This document shows, piece by piece, positions 32,261 through 47,928 of a stretch of DNA of 64,000 nt. How positions within the stretch are numbered: position 1 is the stretch's first letter; each line of letters begins with the position of its first letter. The DNA comes from a virus. The stretch lies in IMG/VR virus record IMGVR_UViG_3300044446_000019, positions 1 through 64,000 of that record. One strand, written 5' to 3'. The translations under genes and the position numbers were made by a program. A model generated the notes under the pieces. That model did no database searches, was not told the DNA's origin, and saw nothing but the letters and a program-made list of their open reading frames with translations.

Positions 32261-35200
32261 TTACTTCGCCTCCCTCTTCTTCCTCGCTTCAAGCATCATC
32301 CGCTTGAGCCACGCCTGAACCTCAGGATCACTTGTAGCCTTTTGCATAATGTCCCACATCGTTGTGGCGGCGTCAGTGCCCTCGTGGAAGTCCCTCTGGT
32401 TCAGTTCACGCTCTGCTGCACCTAGCCGTAGAAGTTCCTGTTCATCACCCGCGAGAAGTCTGCGGATGATGTCTTCCTTCTTTTCGATGAGGGAGGGTTT
32501 GCCGGGTTCGAAGCTACCGGTCCCCACTCTCCGCATGAAGCTTCCCTTCGGCACCTTAATCCGGGCCGTGGGGATGGCAGCAAGTTTCTCGAACGCATCA
32601 CGAAGAGCCTTGGGCGCATCGGCAGGGAGGTCTACCTTGCGTCCAAGCGGTGGTGCGTCGATAGCATCGATGGCTCTCTGGATTCGGTCAGCGACACCCT
32701 GATCGGCGGCGGTCTTCTTCATCTCCCTCAAGCGGTCGATGAATTTACTCAGCTCAAGCTTGTCTCGACCCATTTGATCACCCATACGAGCGATCTCGTT
32801 GATGAAGGAGTTCGGTTCCCGGTCATCCATGTACAGATCAGCCCACAGGGCTCCTAGTTCGGAGTCCAGGTGCATCAGACCCTGATCATTGCCACCGTTG
32901 GGTAGGTAGATGGGTTCGTCAGCGTTGGGACGTTCGCGCTTGATGATGCGACCATCGCCACCGGTTGCTTTGTATTTGAGGGATTCCACCGGCGGCCCGG
33001 GAGCAGCAGGCGAACTGCCGGTGGCAGCAGTCTTCTTTGCAGCAGCCTTCTTTACTGGGGCAGCCTTAGATCGGGCGGCAAGGATGGCGTCAACCCGGGC
33101 CGACTTGAGCAGAGTCGGACGCTCCAGGTTCAGCTCGTCCTCGATATCCTTCAGCTCACCGGGCGACATGTCCATGAGTTCTTCACGGGTCTGTGTACCG
33201 CCGGTGGATGGTGCCGCCGTCTTCGTGACCTTCTTGGCCGCCGCTACCTCGCGCTTGACCTCCGCTTTTGTCTCCGTGCTGGATGCAGCCTTCTTCGCTG
33301 GTGTCCCCCGAAGCTCCGCGATGATGCCTTCGTCTCGGGAAATGTCAGCACGGATTTGGTTACTCTGTGCAGATTCTGTGCCACCGCTGGATCCCGCTGG
33401 GATCTTGCGGTGAGCAAGGCGATCGGTGCGCTCCCTGTTATGCAGTTCAAGCTCCTGGATGGCGCGTGTCTTAGTGACACGACCGCCAGCCACTGCCTTC
33501 GTGAAGTCATCGCCAGTCATGGCAGCGATCTCACGGGGTGTTGCCTTCGCTTCCGTAGTGGGACCAGTCGACTCATTGCGCATCCCACCACGGGTCAGGA
33601 CAGCCATGTTCCTGTTCATCTGTTCCTGCGCGGCGGCCGCAGCTGCGGCCTTCTTCGTTACCTTCCTCGCAGGCGGCGCGGACTTGGCGGCACGGGCCAA
33701 TGTCTCCTTGACCGGGGTACGACTGGACTCCACAATCCTTGCCACGGCAGCAGCGTCTCCAGTAAATCCCCTGGAAGAGATGGGTCCCGGTGCCTTCTTC
33801 GCTGCCGTACGCCGGGCCAATTCAGCGGCAACGGTGGCCTTCTGATCGTCACCGAACTGTGGACTCTCGGTGATCTTCTTCAGGTCATCATCAGCGAGCG
33901 GAGACAGGTTGCTCTGAACTGTCTTCGAGACCTTCTTGGCCGGCGGCAGGTCAGCGGCAACGTCAGCCTTGGCGGCAGGGGTAGCCCTGGAACGTTTGGT
34001 CTTCTTCAACGCCTCCGCGAGTGCTTTCCATCGTGCACTCTGGGCGCGGTACATCTGCGTATTGGCTTCAGCATCCGCCAACTCTGCGCGTGCAATGGCG
34101 ATGTCTTCGGGGGTGACTGAGTTCTTCAGCCGCCTCTTCGCCCCATCAACAAGAATGGTGTTGGTTGCTGCGGCGTAGCCAGGACTGCCAGCTCCCCCGC
34201 TCCAGTTGTCCAACCACCGTCCGATGGCGGCAGGTGTTGCATTCTTGGGTAGCCCGCTGTCACGGAGAGCTTCAGTGTCACCATCAAGGAGACGTTGAAT
34301 CCGGTCCAGCATGTTCTTGTCATTGCCGACGGAGCCTGGTGCTTCGGCATACGCCTGGTCTGGTACCAGGGTGCGGGCATCGATCTTGGCAGCTGGTGGT
34401 TTGGGTGCAGCCTTCTTCTTCGGCAGTGGCGCTGGTGGTGTGAGGTCGATCGGGTCGCCGGCCTGCTGGCGCCGGATCATTTCCCGGGCAAGCTCAGTCA
34501 GTACCTCATCCTTCGTGGTGGCAGCCTCAGGCAGCTTGATGCCGGCAGCCTTGGCGTCCGCCTTAATCTGAGCGACGCTGATTTTTCCTAGCTCCGGGTC
34601 CACTACCCGGATGACTTCCTTCTTGGTCACCAGTTCCGGGGAGTCTCCAGTATGGAGCGCTGCGGCTGCACTCTGGATCCACTGTGCTCGTTCCAGTTCC
34701 TCAGTGATCCGCTTACCGAGGAACTCCTTGTTGGCTTGGGTTTGACCTGGTGCTTCTAACCCTGCCCGGTAGGATTTGAGGCTGTCGTCGGAGCGGCTAA
34801 GTAGACGCTTCAGCTCCGCCTTGGCGTCGTCAACCTTGCCCTTACCTAGGAGGTTCTCCACGGTGGCGTAGTCCAGGGCGGCGGGGCCACCGGCAGGACG
34901 CTTGATCCCAGCGTCTGCCATGATCTTGTCGAGATCATGACCGCCCTTCTTGACCCGCTTGTCCTCCAGGGCTACCCGTTCGCTGATATCCAGGAGATGT
35001 TTGCGATCCTTCTCCGACATCTCAGCCAGGACGCCGTCGCGGTACTCCGGTTTGATACGAGCCAGCATCCGGACAGCTACTCGGTCCTCCACGCTGACCT
35101 TGGAGGGACCGCTGGTGGTCTCAACTTCGTCGCGGATCTCCTTGGCCATCTTGACCAGGTCGTGGCCAGTCTGTCCGGGCATCTGTTTGGCCAGCTCATC

Positions 35201-38200
35201 AAACGGGTCGCCCTGTTGGGCCTGCATATCAGCCAGAACTTCGCGGGCACGCTGTTGTAAACGTGCTCGTTCGGCGGTATCAATGCCGGGGATTTTCCTT
35301 GGTTCCGGTGCGGTAGCAGGGGCCTCCGGAGTCCTTTCGAGCAGGTCGATCAAGTCCTGCTTCTTGGCCCGCTGCGGTGGGTTCAGGCCACGGTCAGTGG
35401 CCATCTCCCGCAACTGGCGCACCGTGTTGCCCTTGAGCGGGGAACCGAGGTCTACCTCAGGAGCTGGTCCCTCTGGCGCTACACCGAGACGGCCACGGAT
35501 GTCGTTGATGACGTCCCCGGCGGCCTCCCCCGCAAGGACCCGGTTGGACAGTTCCGGAAGGTTGTCGTCGCGTTCCTTCTTCGTCAGCTCAGTCCGAGCA
35601 GCCTTCTTGGCTGGCGCACTGAGGGCACGGTGGACAACGTTCTGGCCGGCGATCGACTGGAGGGTGATCTCGTTACCGTCTTCATCGGTACCGCTGATCT
35701 TGTACCCGGTCTGCCGACCAACCTGTGCCCGGTCGATCTTGGAAACCGTGAGCGTCTTGGCCCCGGTCTTGCGGGCACTACTGCTCCAGTTGCCCTTAGT
35801 GTCCTGCTGAACGCGAAGCTTCTCGCCCACCTTGAGCCGAGAGGCAGACACCGTCGGCTTGTTCGGGTCAGACAGCTGATCCTGGTGCGCCTTGAAAGCT
35901 GCCTCGATCTCCGCTTCCCGGGCAGCAGCCTTCGCTGCCTTGGCCAGGACCGGTGGAGTGTCCGGGGCTACTTCGATCGCCTTCAGTGCCTTGACCTCAG
36001 GCGTGGCCTTCTTGCCCAGATTGGCGATGGTCTTCTCAGCCTTGGCCAGCGCGGCATCGTCGGCTGCGGTAGCCGGACCCAGCTTACTCGGGGTCAGCCT
36101 CTTGATCGGGGCGCCGCTGCCCATGCGGTCAAGGGTCTTCTGTGCCTTGGCAATCGTCTCTTCGTCAGTGAGAACCTTAGGCGCGGCAACCTTCTTGGCA
36201 GGTGCGGCCAGCTTCGCAGGCGCAGCCTGCTTCATGTCAGCGGCTACGTCTTCCTTCGCCGCACCACCCTTGCGCTGTAGCTCCGGTGTGGCCTTCCACT
36301 TGGCCGCCAGTTCCTTGGACAGGGCTGCCTTCAGCTTGAGCTTCTTGTCCTCGCCACGGGTCTCCACGCCCCACTTCTCAGCGAGAGCGCGGAGGTCCCC
36401 GACCGTGAGTCCATTAAGGCCGGTGAGAATGTTCTTCTCTGTGCGACCTTCCAGCTTCTTCTGGGCAGCTTCAACGTCCGGTGCAGCCTTGGGGGCACGC
36501 TTCTTCAGCGGTACACGCTTGGCTGGCTTAGACTCGTCGGCTTCGATAACGTCAGCAATCTTGCGCAGGTAGTTGGCTTCGGGGGTGTCATCCTCCTTGG
36601 CCTGATCCCGTAGCCGCTGCACCGCCTTCGGTCGAGTGACCCTGCCATTACGCAACAGGTCAGCGGTTTCGTCTAGCAGGATATTGCCGGCGGTGTCGCC
36701 GGAGCGCATGCTAGCCGGTTCCGCGCCCACCGCATCCGACCACCGGGACCGCTGCTCCGCGTTCAGGCGGTCGTCTTCAATGTCCTTCTCTTGCTGAGTA
36801 CCCAGACCCTTGGCACGAGACTCGGGCGTACCGTCGGTCCGTTTCGGAGCCACCTTCGCCAATGGGCCAGGGCGGGCGGCCTCAGTGGCAGTCTTCTTCG
36901 CCCCCGGCACCCTGTCTGTTCCACCGCCGGGACGAGTCAGCGCCTTCTTCGCGGCAGCCGCTGCTTTCTGGTCCAGCTCGTTACGAACGTCAGCCTTGGC
37001 CTGACGCTGTTGCGGCGTACCCAAGGTGAAGTGGGAACGGATAAGGTCCGCGAGTTTCTCCTGCTTACTGATGTCGTCAGCCAGCAAGGAGTCGCCACGG
37101 CCCACCTCCGTCGCCTGGAGCTTCTTGTTGGTAGCAATGTCTGCTTCCAACTCCCGCAACATGTCGGCGGGGTGCTGCTTGCCAGAGGTAATGCCGGTGT
37201 AGGCGCTGTTCCATTCCTTACGACGTGGGCCAGCCGACGGTGCCTCCAGACTGGCAGCCGAGGCCGCGTCCCGGAAGCTGGTGGCAGGTTCCCCGGTGAC
37301 CACGGAGGTGGCACCATTGGGGGTCTCCGGCGCCGGTGGGGTCTGGGGAGTTTCTACCGGCGCCGGAGCTGGTACGTTCGGGGCCTCACGAGGTGCCGGC
37401 TGCGTGACCGCCGGAGCCGGTGTCGGTGAGAGGCCCGCCGCCGTTGACTCTGCCGGTTGTACGGCGGCGGGTCCTCTACCGAGTACGGCAGCCCGTCGTT
37501 GAGCCCGAACCTGCTCTGGGGTCATTCCTTCAGGTGGGTTTTCGAGAGCTTCTCCGGGAAGTGCACCGAGAGGTTGACTGCCAGTTTCGCGAGCGGAGGC
37601 AGCGTCCTCCAGTTTCTTGATGTTGCCCTCGCGGTCCTGGGGCATACCGGAACCCTGGTGACCGGACTCAGGTAGCGGGGTCTCACCAGGAGTCTTCGGG
37701 GTCGCTACCACCGACATGATGTAGCCGCCACGACCGTCAGGCTTGACCTTGGTGATGGTCATTTCCTGGTCGCGGTCCATGAAGATGGCCCGGTCTGTGC
37801 CACTCCTGGCCGGGATGGCGACCCGCGTTCCCTTGGGTGCGGCAATCCTCATCTGGATCATGCCCTGACCACCAGCGGCCGGGGTGCCCAGGTTGGTGGC
37901 CAGGTAGCCACGGTCGGCGATGACGTCGCCGGTCAGTTCTTCCAGCTCGGGTAGCCGGTCAGCGGTGAGACCGAAGGCGTCCGGCGTGGCAACGTGGTTG
38001 ATGATCAGGTCTTCGGGCGTCTCCTCCATGGAGGCGTCCATCATGTCGACGAACTTCTTCGTGGACGGCTCGTCAATCTTGCCGTCACGAAGATCCTGGT
38101 TGGCGTTATCGAAATCGGCCTGCAACCGGGCGAAGCCCTTGCCTCCACCGAAACGACCAGGCTTCTTATGACCCAGGTTGTTGGTGTACTGGGTCGCCTG

Positions 38201-38362
38201 AGAGTCGCTCTGGAAGAAGCGAGGGTGATAGGCGCCAAGCACCTTCTCCACCGCTGCGAGGACAGAAGGGGACATTTTCCACTTGCTACGGAAACGCCCG
38301 TGACTGTCGCGAGGATGGAGCAATTCCTCGCGAGTGCCCCAGCTGTCACCAATTCCGGCCAT
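32261..38362 (-). CDS. Giant virion protein with ADP-ribosyltransferase domain
   Basis: 2033 residues. N-terminal ART-like domain at about 45-220: RGYLATNLG stands for the STS strand, and GTDRAIFMDRDQEMTITKV carries the (E/Q)xE-type site as D-Q-E. The remainder is Lys/Ala-rich and low complexity with at least three SAP/HeH-like helices (LRALAEKWGV near 650, VRQLREMATDRGLNPP near 975, MSPGELKDIEDELNLERP near 1730) that could bind DNA. Location between protease and capsid genes suggests it is packaged and ejected to modify host proteins. Confidence 0.75.
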   Translation of the reverse strand: MAGIGDSWGTREELLHPRDSHGRFRSKWKMSPSVLAAVEKVLGAYHPRFFQSDSQATQYTNNLGHKKPGRFGGGKGFARLQADFDNANQDLRDGKIDEPSTKKFVDMMDASMEETPEDLIINHVATPDAFGLTADRLPELEELTGDVIADRGYLATNLGTPAAGGQGMIQMRIAAPKGTRVAIPARSGTDRAIFMDRDQEMTITKVKPDGRGGYIMSVVATPKTPGETPLPESGHQGSGMPQDREGNIKKLEDAASARETGSQPLGALPGEALENPPEGMTPEQVRAQRRAAVLGRGPAAVQPAESTAAGLSPTPAPAVTQPAPREAPNVPAPAPVETPQTPPAPETPNGATSVVTGEPATSFRDAASAASLEAPSAGPRRKEWNSAYTGITSGKQHPADMLRELEADIATNKKLQATEVGRGDSLLADDISKQEKLADLIRSHFTLGTPQQRQAKADVRNELDQKAAAAAKKALTRPGGGTDRVPGAKKTATEAARPGPLAKVAPKRTDGTPESRAKGLGTQQEKDIEDDRLNAEQRSRWSDAVGAEPASMRSGDTAGNILLDETADLLRNGRVTRPKAVQRLRDQAKEDDTPEANYLRKIADVIEADESKPAKRVPLKKRAPKAAPDVEAAQKKLEGRTEKNILTGLNGLTVGDLRALAEKWGVETRGEDKKLKLKAALSKELAAKWKATPELQRKGGAAKEDVAADMKQAAPAKLAAPAKKVAAPKVLTDEETIAKAQKTLDRMGSGAPIKRLTPSKLGPATAADDAALAKAEKTIANLGKKATPEVKALKAIEVAPDTPPVLAKAAKAAAREAEIEAAFKAHQDQLSDPNKPTVSASRLKVGEKLRVQQDTKGNWSSSARKTGAKTLTVSKIDRAQVGRQTGYKISGTDEDGNEITLQSIAGQNVVHRALSAPAKKAARTELTKKERDDNLPELSNRVLAGEAAGDVINDIRGRLGVAPEGPAPEVDLGSPLKGNTVRQLREMATDRGLNPPQRAKKQDLIDLLERTPEAPATAPEPRKIPGIDTAERARLQQRAREVLADMQAQQGDPFDELAKQMPGQTGHDLVKMAKEIRDEVETTSGPSKVSVEDRVAVRMLARIKPEYRDGVLAEMSEKDRKHLLDISERVALEDKRVKKGGHDLDKIMADAGIKRPAGGPAALDYATVENLLGKGKVDDAKAELKRLLSRSDDSLKSYRAGLEAPGQTQANKEFLGKRITEELERAQWIQSAAAALHTGDSPELVTKKEVIRVVDPELGKISVAQIKADAKAAGIKLPEAATTKDEVLTELAREMIRRQQAGDPIDLTPPAPLPKKKAAPKPPAAKIDARTLVPDQAYAEAPGSVGNDKNMLDRIQRLLDGDTEALRDSGLPKNATPAAIGRWLDNWSGGAGSPGYAAATNTILVDGAKRRLKNSVTPEDIAIARAELADAEANTQMYRAQSARWKALAEALKKTKRSRATPAAKADVAADLPPAKKVSKTVQSNLSPLADDDLKKITESPQFGDDQKATVAAELARRTAAKKAPGPISSRGFTGDAAAVARIVESSRTPVKETLARAAKSAPPARKVTKKAAAAAAAQEQMNRNMAVLTRGGMRNESTGPTTEAKATPREIAAMTGDDFTKAVAGGRVTKTRAIQELELHNRERTDRLAHRKIPAGSSGGTESAQSNQIRADISRDEGIIAELRGTPAKKAASSTETKAEVKREVAAAKKVTKTAAPSTGGTQTREELMDMSPGELKDIEDELNLERPTLLKSARVDAILAARSKAAPVKKAAAKKTAATGSSPAAPGPPVESLKYKATGGDGRIIKRERPNADEPIYLPNGGNDQGLMHLDSELGALWADLYMDDREPNSFINEIARMGDQMGRDKLELSKFIDRLREMKKTAADQGVADRIQRAIDAIDAPPLGRKVDLPADAPKALRDAFEKLAAIPTARIKVPKGSFMRRVGTGSFEPGKPSLIEKKEDIIRRLLAGDEQELLRLGAAERELNQRDFHEGTDAATTMWDIMQKATSDPEVQAWLKRMMLEARKKREAK

Positions 38363-46735: not shown

Positions 46736-47464
46736 ATGACTGAGCTACATCAGATCCTCGCCATCGAGAAGGGCACCAAGGCACGCAGCTACCGTGCTCT
46801 GACCGATGCGCACCACCTGCTACAGAACCAGACGAAGCTGTCGGGTCTGTCGCGTACCTACCGGCCGAAGGATGACGACGGTGACCGTCTGCCGTCGGAG
46901 ACCACCCGGCTGCAGGTCCACGCGAGTGATGTCCTGCAGACGGTTCGGACTGCACTGACTGAGCTGTTCGACGTCGAGCTGACGAAGGACGCGGCGAACC
47001 AGGTGGCGATGGCTGACATTGTGGTCGACGGCATCATCATCGCCAGCAACGTTCCGGTGTCCTATCTCCTGTTCCTGGAGAAGCAGCTCACCGACCTGAA
47101 CACGTTCGTGGACAAGCTTCCGGTGCTGGACCCGGCTGAGTCGTGGGAGTTTGACTCGGGCAGCGATGCCTACGTCACCTCCGTGGAGACGACCCGGACG
47201 AAGAAGATCCCGCGCAACCACGTGAAGGCTGAGGCCACTGACCGCCACCCGGCGCAGGTGGAGCTGTACTTCGAAGATGTGACGGTCGGCTACTGGACCA
47301 CGATCAAGTTCTCTGGGGCACTGCCGCAGTCGGACGTGAACGAATTCAAGACCCGGATCGTGAAGCTGTCCAACGCGGTCAAGGAAGCCCGCGAGGAGGC
47401 GAACAGCTTCAGTGTGGAGCGTCGCACCATCGGCCAGGATGTGTTCAACTACCTGTTCGACTAG
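46736..47464 (+). CDS. Conserved actinobacterial protein embedded in the tRNA array
   Basis: 242 residues, ATG after gaggag. LAIEKGTKARSYRALTDAHH, LSGLSRTYRPKDDDGDRLPS, VPVSYLLFLEKQLTDLNTF and KIPRNHVKAEATDRHPAQVE belong to a highly conserved family present in many actinobacteria and their phages. I do not know its biochemical function. Its place inside a tRNA array, just before tRNA genes of abnormal order, suggests a role in tRNA or translation biology; that is inference only. Confidence 0.75.
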   Translation: MTELHQILAIEKGTKARSYRALTDAHHLLQNQTKLSGLSRTYRPKDDDGDRLPSETTRLQVHASDVLQTVRTALTELFDVELTKDAANQVAMADIVVDGIIIASNVPVSYLLFLEKQLTDLNTFVDKLPVLDPAESWEFDSGSDAYVTSVETTRTKKIPRNHVKAEATDRHPAQVELYFEDVTVGYWTTIKFSGALPQSDVNEFKTRIVKLSNAVKEAREEANSFSVERRTIGQDVFNYLFD

Positions 47465-47471
47465 CTACACC

Positions 47472-47540
47472 GGGTCAGGCATGAGCAAGCCCCAGGACAC
47501 TGTCTACACCCTGGTCCAGGTTCGATTCCTGGATGACCCA
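47472..47540 (+). tRNA. Degenerate tRNA-like element
   Basis: 69 nt in normal order: six-pair acceptor gggtca/tgaccc, a minimal ggc/gcc D arm without the GG loop, anticodon stem ccagg/cctgg with a 13-nt loop (acactgtctacac), one-base variable region and a perfect T arm ccagg ttcgatt cctgg. Positions 8-9 are missing. Probably a decayed tRNA or tRNA mimic rather than a normal decoder. Confidence 0.45.
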
Positions 47541-47599
47541 CTGCCCTTCGGGGCTGGCACAAGTTCAACTTCAAACTCAAGCGCAAGATAAATGGACGC

Positions 47600-47672
47600 C
47601 TCGTCCAGTGCAGGTTCGAAGCCTGCCCCCGGCTCCACATGCCGGGGTAGCCCAATCGGTAGAGGCAGCGAG
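47600..47672 (+). tRNA. Candidate circularly permuted tRNA A
   Basis: The 3' half comes first: ctcgt (anticodon stem 3' strand, 47600-47604), ccagt, T arm gcagg ttcgaag cctgc, acceptor ccccggc, T73 and CCA to 47637. After a 3-base linker the 5' half follows: acceptor gccgggg (47641-47647), ta, a D arm with cggta, A26, then gcgag (47668-47672). The acceptor pairs 7/7 and the anticodon stem 5/5 (one G-U). The anticodon loop cannot be assembled unambiguously, so the amino acid is unassigned. Confidence 0.65.
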
Positions 47673-47730
47673 GACCAAATTCAACTTATGCCTCAATCTC
47701 AAGCTAAGCCGTCAGTGCACCGGCTCGACC

Positions 47731-47837
47731 GGTTCCGATCTGTTCTTCCAGTCGCGGGTTCGATCCCCGCCCCGGCCTCCAACGTGGCCGGGTAGCTCAG
47801 TGGTAGAGCGGGAAGATTGAAACTCTAAGACGGAACC
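47731..47837 (+). tRNA. Candidate circularly permuted tRNA B
   Basis: The same permuted order: 3' half cttcc (47745-47749), agtc, T arm gcggg ttcgatc cccgc, acceptor cccggcc, T73, CCA to 47781; 4-base linker acgt; 5' half ggccggg (47786-47792), ta, D arm gctc..ggta..gagc, G26, ggaag (47811-47815). Acceptor pairs 7/7 and anticodon stem 5/5. The flanks pair as ggttccg (47731-47737) with cggaacc (47831-47837), extending the anticodon helix outwards as expected for a pre-tRNA whose ends meet in the anticodon loop. Confidence 0.7.
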
Positions 47838-47877
47838 TTAAACGCCATCGGTGCGCCTAGGTAACACAAACATAAAC

Positions 47878-47908
47878 GGGGCCGGTCGTCGGATATGCGA
47901 CCGGCCCC
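47878..47908 (+). terminator. Hairpin closing the tRNA array
   Basis: An 11-bp GC-rich stem ggggccggtcg/cgaccggcccc with a 9-base loop, 21 bases before the next gene. No T run; likely a 3' end or processing signal of the tRNA transcript. Confidence 0.6.
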
Positions 47909-47928
47909 ACCTAAACTCTGGAGTTGAG

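Follow-up and report, generated by a model that had tools for sequence, protein, structure and literature searches.

What is encoded where two adjacent tRNA-like units run with the 3' half first, in the IMG/VR virus record IMGVR_UViG_3300044446_000019? The window is the stretch analysed, positions 1 to 64,000 of that record (64,000 nucleotides, nt). Unit A lies at ~47600-47672 and unit B, the feature under study, at 47731-47837. The original prediction, drawn from the letters alone, took both for permuted tRNA genes whose maturation passes through a circular intermediate and needs a ligase. Of this, the permuted tRNA-like order is upheld; the decoding tRNA gene is not. Units A and B belong, as its two tRNA-like domains, to a single structured RNA, ~350 nt in length (~47555-47910) and paired with a DUF7873 protein gene. 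The tRNA-like units are tRNA mimics, not decoding tRNAs.

Structure and covariation of the RNA

Domain B is permuted in order. Every element that the original prediction had named was found base for base by sequence reading and mapping, and unconstrained folding of 47704-47853 yields the same structure, with T arm, acceptor, D arm, anticodon-type stem and outer helix (-58.2 kcal/mol, z -2.25). The outer helix holds the ends together, as predicted, and covaries strongly, an outcome on which the original prediction had made itself depend: among 25 virus and phage sequences 93.5% of cells are paired, with double changes in 6/6 counted pairs. In the same sequences covariation extends to the acceptor, T, D and anticodon-type stems. 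Domain B as a whole holds 228 double-change cells, against 67.6 ± 6.7 in shuffled alignments, a control that ignores the relatedness of the sequences, and at most 77 with the partners slid. Matched flanks of domain B pair at a mean of -22.9 kcal/mol, flanks swapped between loci at -14.5 kcal/mol. By eye, the folds show an asymmetric internal loop in the outer helix and no strict bulge-helix-bulge.

ARAGORN, and Rfam at curated thresholds, call nothing at 47731-47837. A pattern scan of the window for permuted units gives two on the plus strand and none on the other (Markov shuffles, 0.37 per strand); it is weak by itself, and conservation settles that the units are real. BLAST relatives are the Gordonia phages GodonK and Phendrix and the Arthrobacter phage Mimi. 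In each, the gene at 46736-47464 has a homologue, and the largely unannotated stretch immediately after it carries two units with differing yet complementary acceptor stems. The claim that two adjacent units of one design are no accident is borne out by the same pair and by complementary acceptor changes in relatives. Chance, or adjacent half-tRNAs, as the source of the pattern is ruled out by acceptor covariation and conservation.

The consensus from 28 bacterial RNAs is characterized by 72 pairs, with 96.6% of cells paired. Double-change cells number 270, against 73.6 ± 8.6 after the same kind of shuffling and at most 52 with partners slid; the slid control and the wide host range make a phylogenetic artefact unlikely. 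In this layout leader/middle pairing surrounds domain A (helices paired in 94.3% and 91.7%) and basal helices surround domain B; the outer helix, the anticodon-type stem, the two heads and a terminal hairpin complete it. Helices of the middle segment occupy 185-190/349-354 and 194-199/332-337 of the A5 alignment. The terminal hairpin is helix 12 of A5, 93.3% paired, with double changes in 6/8 pairs. Near domain B a conserved internal loop sets AUCGACC opposite CUUAAACG; the window has CTCGACC on the middle-segment side.

Each arm of the RNA is a long basal helix capped by a permuted tRNA-like head. The basal helix stands where the anticodon arm would be, and a linker, 4 to >80 nt across units, closes the acceptor stem. 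In loci L007 and L035 the domain B linker appears by eye to be well over 100 nt, so that the loop either tolerates large insertions or is removed. Domain A is swapped for a plain hairpin in several loci, including the closest viral relative (L005) and a Streptomyces locus (L255), and the surrounding helices are kept. In L005, L008, L067, L068 and L069 an ordinary tRNA gene seems, by eye, to separate domain B from the terminal hairpin, as though it had been inserted into the RNA.

Just before the RNA, at 47472-47540, stands a tRNA-like element of normal order, with acceptor GGGTCA/TGACCC, a T arm and a 13-nt anticodon-type loop; it is called by neither ARAGORN nor Rfam. Odd tRNA-like elements occupy the equivalent place in L005 and L063. 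Short open reading frames (ORFs) can be called over the RNA (47533-47820 in the window; gp151 in GodonK) and are annotated in phage records; they are probably not genes. Read by eye as codons, the leader repeat suggests K-L-K-L patterns; this reading was rejected: the repeat strands pair with each other instead.

Pairing with DUF7873

DUF7873 is the obligate genomic neighbour of the RNA. Used as bait, it retrieves 58 viral loci and named phages of Gordonia, Rhodococcus, Pseudanabaena, Klebsiella, Vibrio and Rhizobium. A permuted unit follows closely downstream in nearly all of 66 viral loci, and the full pair is present in most. One exception in the unit scan is L070, a Microcoleus phage; the two units of L054, overlooked by the scan, are present by eye. 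Bacterial genomes yield at least 586 stretches. Among the best 80 of these (Streptomyces, Lentzea, Nocardia, Dactylosporangium, Ktedonobacter, others) a permuted unit lies directly downstream of DUF7873 in 79, the exception being L257; at several loci where the scan overlooked domain B, it is present with a variant D loop.

For co-occurrence, a covariance model built from the B half (rough calibration) and a DUF7873 profile were run over the same genomes. DUF7873 is present in 70/150 Streptomyces genomes, and the same 70 carry one full-length RNA match, at 57.6 bits or more, a few hundred nt downstream and on the same strand. No full-length, co-located match was found in the 80 DUF7873-free genomes. 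Background matches reach at most 55.9 bits and are mostly partial and ordinary-tRNA-like; the gap is small at the low end, but even the lowest-scoring true matches run the full length and lie beside DUF7873, the background ones being partial or elsewhere. Among 198 genomes of Actinomycetota, DUF7873 occurs in 6 and the RNA in the same 6. Bacterial occurrence is patchy (3% of the Actinomycetota sample and 47% of the Streptomyces genomes). In virus genomes the RNA-protein cassette frequently lies inside tRNA clusters. With crude ORF calling in GC-rich DNA, no neighbour family besides fragments of the DUF7873 locus occurs in more than 7 of the 80 bacterial loci. Viral contigs were also scanned for the DNA pattern CTTAAACG...CGGATATG; the pattern proved too unspecific, and the matches listed added nothing informative to the loci already known.

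The predicted structure of DUF7873 is confident (pLDDT 93). Nothing significant was detected for it in PADLOC, NCBIfam, PHROGs or PDB sequences; it does not match TROVE, and no description of it was found in the open-access literature searched.

Coordinates of the DUF7873 gene and of the parts of the RNA in the window
Feature	Position	Strand	Basis or remark
DUF7873 gene, 242 aa (amino acids), directly 5' of the RNA	46736-47464	+	Pfam PF25283, E=1.4e-103
RNA leader strand, repeated YTNARR-type motif, pairs with middle segment	47558-47604	+	Conserved segment, helix pairing in bacterial RNAs
ctcgt, 3' strand of domain A closing stem	47600-47604	+	Mapped coordinates
Domain A, permuted tRNA-like unit	47600-47672	+	Sequence; sub-threshold YrlA match, 24.7 bits
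Domain A closing stem	47600-47604/47668-47672	+	
Domain A T arm	47610-47626	+	
Domain A acceptor	47627-47633/47641-47647	+	
Domain A TCCA	47634-47637	+	
Domain A D arm	47650-47666	+	
Middle segment: leader-pairing strand, then 5' strand of B basal helix and CTCGACC	47673-47730	+	Invariant T-C.A columns
Domain B	47731-47837	+	Fold, covariation, sub-threshold YrlA match
Domain B outer helix (ggttccg/cggaacc)	47731-47737/47831-47837	+	Sequence mapping
Domain B anticodon-type stem (cttcc/ggaag)	47745-47749/47811-47815	+	Sequence mapping
Domain B T arm	47754-47770	+	Sequence mapping
Domain B acceptor 3' strand, cccggcc-T-CCA	47771-47781 (cccggcc 47771-47777, TCCA 47778-47781)	+	
Domain B linker acgt	47782-47785	+	
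Domain B acceptor 5' strand ggccggg	47786-47792	+	
Domain B D arm	47795-47809	+	Sequence mapping
Near-universal CTTAAACG, opposite the CTCGACC strand	47837-47844	+	TTAAA(C)G nearly invariant, virus and bacterial alignments
3' strand of basal helix, after CTTAAACG	~47849-47855 (entry 47837-47855)	+	
Terminal GC-rich hairpin, loop around CGGATATG, terminator-like RNA end	47878-47908	+	Same loop, different stem in many loci

tRNA mimicry and the comparison with Y RNA

The tRNA elbow is kept in nearly all virus and bacterial units (TTC-R-A T loop, U8, A14, G18G19); the D loop is of a variant form in some B heads from Nocardia. A joined anticodon loop with U at position 33 (U33) and a fixed anticodon register is not kept across virus or bacterial units. 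U33 is present in 9/44 A and 22/42 B units of viruses, and in 6/51 A and 9/45 B units of bacteria. Loop-like windows of domain B (e.g. ATTGAAA) were tried as anticodon loops and rejected: the register shifts among relatives and U33 is not kept. Because a head can be dropped and no anticodon is maintained, the units are no decoding tRNA genes, and the circle-and-ligase maturation of the original prediction is rejected as the main function.

Bacterial A heads have A at position 73 in 51/51 cases, and most units have C at position 74. As had been noticed, CCA is encoded in both units of the window and in 0/5 of its ordinary tRNAs. Across related virus loci it is encoded in 38/86 units and 30/208 ordinary tRNAs; it is frequent in the units, yet no rule. 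The acceptors may be processed by RNase P/RNase Z.

A permissive Rfam scan gives bacterial Y RNA (YrlA, RF02553) as the single meaningful relative, with domain B at 44.7 bits over the full length of the model (1-114) and domain A far lower. In YrlA, according to a review (PMC8394870), a tRNA-like domain is set on a stem tethering Rsr, the Ro60 homologue; such RNAs lie in the Salmonella operon rsr-yrlBA-rtcBA, according to PMC7790460. YrlA-bearing phages are mentioned in PMC7765460. The likenesses are as follows. Permuted T, acceptor and D arms form a tRNA-like head in both domains, with compensatory changes; a large stem joins the 5' and 3' ends (outer helix of B, 93.5%; leader/middle helices of A, 91.7-94.3%); and two tandem units adjoin a partner-protein gene, with RtcB occasionally near. 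The differences are two heads in one ~350-nt RNA with conserved internal loops of its own (AUCGACC/CUUAAACG; leader/middle helices), DUF7873 as partner instead of TROVE/Ro60, and acceptor loops in which NCCA is frequent and insertions of tens of nt or larger are tolerated. No TROVE (Ro60/Rsr) gene is present in this record, and 2/37 virus records have one. Rsr binding and PNPase tethering are features of YrlA.

In Rhizobium phage TM30 a TROVE gene with adjoining YrlA-like matches lies at 139475-141332 (L075, L076, L079), ~5 kb from DUF7873 and the RNA, so that one phage holds both systems. TROVE is present, with strong YrlA matches, in the 392-kb virus record of L021 as well.

Two other groups of RNAs invite comparison. 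Two-piece (permuted) transfer-messenger RNA (tmRNA) is alike in that the 3' segment of its tRNA-like part is encoded first and a long helix replaces the anticodon arm; the present RNA differs by a full D arm, two heads and the lack of an Rfam tmRNA match. At this locus the Rfam tmRNA model gives no match at E up to 10, and a similar search detects tmRNA elsewhere in GodonK (L001; 1156-1684, 90.3 bits), where the record annotates only tRNA-His (1235-1296). GOLLD, ROOL and OLE are large, ornately structured RNAs that phages and bacteria carry, in some cases near tRNA genes. The present RNA shares size and carriers of this kind; it differs by the lack of an Rfam match, another architecture and two permuted tRNA heads.

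Readings of the cassette

The DUF7873 gene and the structured ~350-nt RNA directly behind it form a two-part cassette. DUF7873 would hold the conserved basal part of the RNA, and the tRNA-shaped heads would present elbow and acceptor to tRNA-recognising enzymes, such as nucleases or those that process or modify tRNA; the heads would thereby serve tRNA metabolism as a tether, a decoy or a sensor. Such a Y-RNA-like ribonucleoprotein, with DUF7873 in the place of Ro60 and the heads as tRNA mimics, is the likeliest reading and narrowly probable. In its favour are the covarying structure, the obligate pairing with DUF7873, the intact elbow, the lack of a decoding loop, the exchange of head A for a hairpin with the basal helices kept, YrlA as the nearest Rfam family and the frequent location in viral tRNA clusters. 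That phages carry the cassette among tRNA genes, and that bacteria have it patchily, hints at a tRNA-directed conflict; a role in tRNA damage or in phage-host conflict is possible.

Several results weigh against this Y-RNA-like reading. The YrlA gathering threshold (69 bits) is not reached in the window, nor in any of 30 records, and adjacent ordinary tRNAs, too, draw a weak response from the YrlA model. Fold searches with DUF7873 gave neither a recognised fold nor a nucleic-acid-binding match (best Foldseek E 5e-3, probability 0.18; best Z 7.8), which leaves RNA binding unsupported by homology and is no proof of a new fold. The strong C74 and the CCA encoded in many units fit processed tRNA ends equally well. 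By its sub-threshold score and its other partner protein the RNA is not a YrlA RNA proper, yet on this reading it would work like a Y RNA.

A categorically new class of ribonucleoprotein is possible, and is put forward tentatively. In it DUF7873 and the twin-headed RNA would act together, the RNA possibly being cut by RNase P/RNase Z at both acceptors into three base-paired pieces with CCA ends like those of mature tRNA, which could be modified, charged or delivered in the manner of tRNA without decoding.

As a sub-case of the Y-RNA-like ribonucleoprotein, the heads may absorb or sense anticodon nucleases or tRNA-targeting toxins, with DUF7873 stabilising the RNA or signalling. Many phages carry the cassette, often among tRNA genes, the bacterial distribution is patchy and RtcB is an occasional neighbour, all in keeping with a decoy or sensor. 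This sub-case is nevertheless unlikely: DUF7873 has no PADLOC match, the anticodon loop, where anticodon nucleases usually strike, is not retained, and the cassette is single-copy and widespread in Streptomyces.

Strict pairing of one protein with one RNA, and again the patchy distribution, would also suit a type III-like toxin-antitoxin in which the RNA neutralises a DUF7873 toxin. The RNA is 3' of the gene, large and non-repetitive, and DUF7873 shows no nuclease or toxin fold and again no PADLOC match, so that a toxin-antitoxin is improbable. To the same degree improbable is a cis-acting 3' element of the DUF7873 message, with cuts by RNase P/RNase Z at the heads setting message stability and no RNA acting in trans. 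The RNA is always directly downstream and co-oriented, and ends in a terminator-like hairpin, as such an element might; but the size and conservation of its core go far beyond known processing elements, the distances between gene and RNA vary, and ordinary tRNAs inside the RNA at some loci leave it undisturbed.

Least probable are genuine permuted tRNA genes, cut at the anticodon-type stem, ligated by RtcB or an ATP-dependent ligase and opened at the acceptor by RNase P/RNase Z, to which the permuted order, the intact elbow, C74 and frequent CCA lend some colour, but which leave the 72-pair common core and the obligate DUF7873 unexplained and agree poorly with unconserved U33, an unfixed anticodon register and the loss of domain A in L005, L255 and others. 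The ligase search that had been proposed found no RtcB, PF09414 or PF09511 ligase in this 64-kb record, which is possibly incomplete. In related virus records RtcB occurs in 7/37, PF09414 in 8/26 and PF09511 in 3/26; a consistent link between ligase and RNA was tried and rejected on these counts. In L026 an RtcB RNA ligase gene (L071) lies directly behind the RNA, recalling rsr-yrlBA-rtcBA, and this too speaks for permuted tRNA genes. The permuted tRNA genes of red and green algae and of Thermofilum are alike in having the 3' half first, a short segment between the acceptor strands and flanks that pair at the anticodon arm (PMC3978253). The algal ones retain U33 (Soma 2014, PMC3978253). Here, in contrast, carriers are bacteria and phages, U33 and the anticodon are unconserved, and the unit is part of a larger RNA and exchangeable for a hairpin. 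No description of permuted tRNAs in phages or bacteria was found in the open-access literature searched; publication elsewhere is possible.

One further observation concerns the rest of the window. On the minus strand, 32261-38362 is an ORF of 2033 aa, with PHROG matches only to residues 962-1010 (endonuclease VII/Arc-like repressor).

The larger twin-headed RNA appears previously undescribed and is absent from Rfam 15. A structured RNA and its obligate protein have apparently been overlooked despite presence in 70 of 150 sampled Streptomyces genomes and in many phages; in named phage records the RNA stretch is largely unannotated or lies under short hypothetical ORFs. Permuted tRNA-like order in bacteria need not imply a tRNA gene. 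The cassette is a second, apparently Ro60-independent, case of tRNA mimicry by way of a permuted module, and genetically tractable Streptomyces carriers make its function directly testable.
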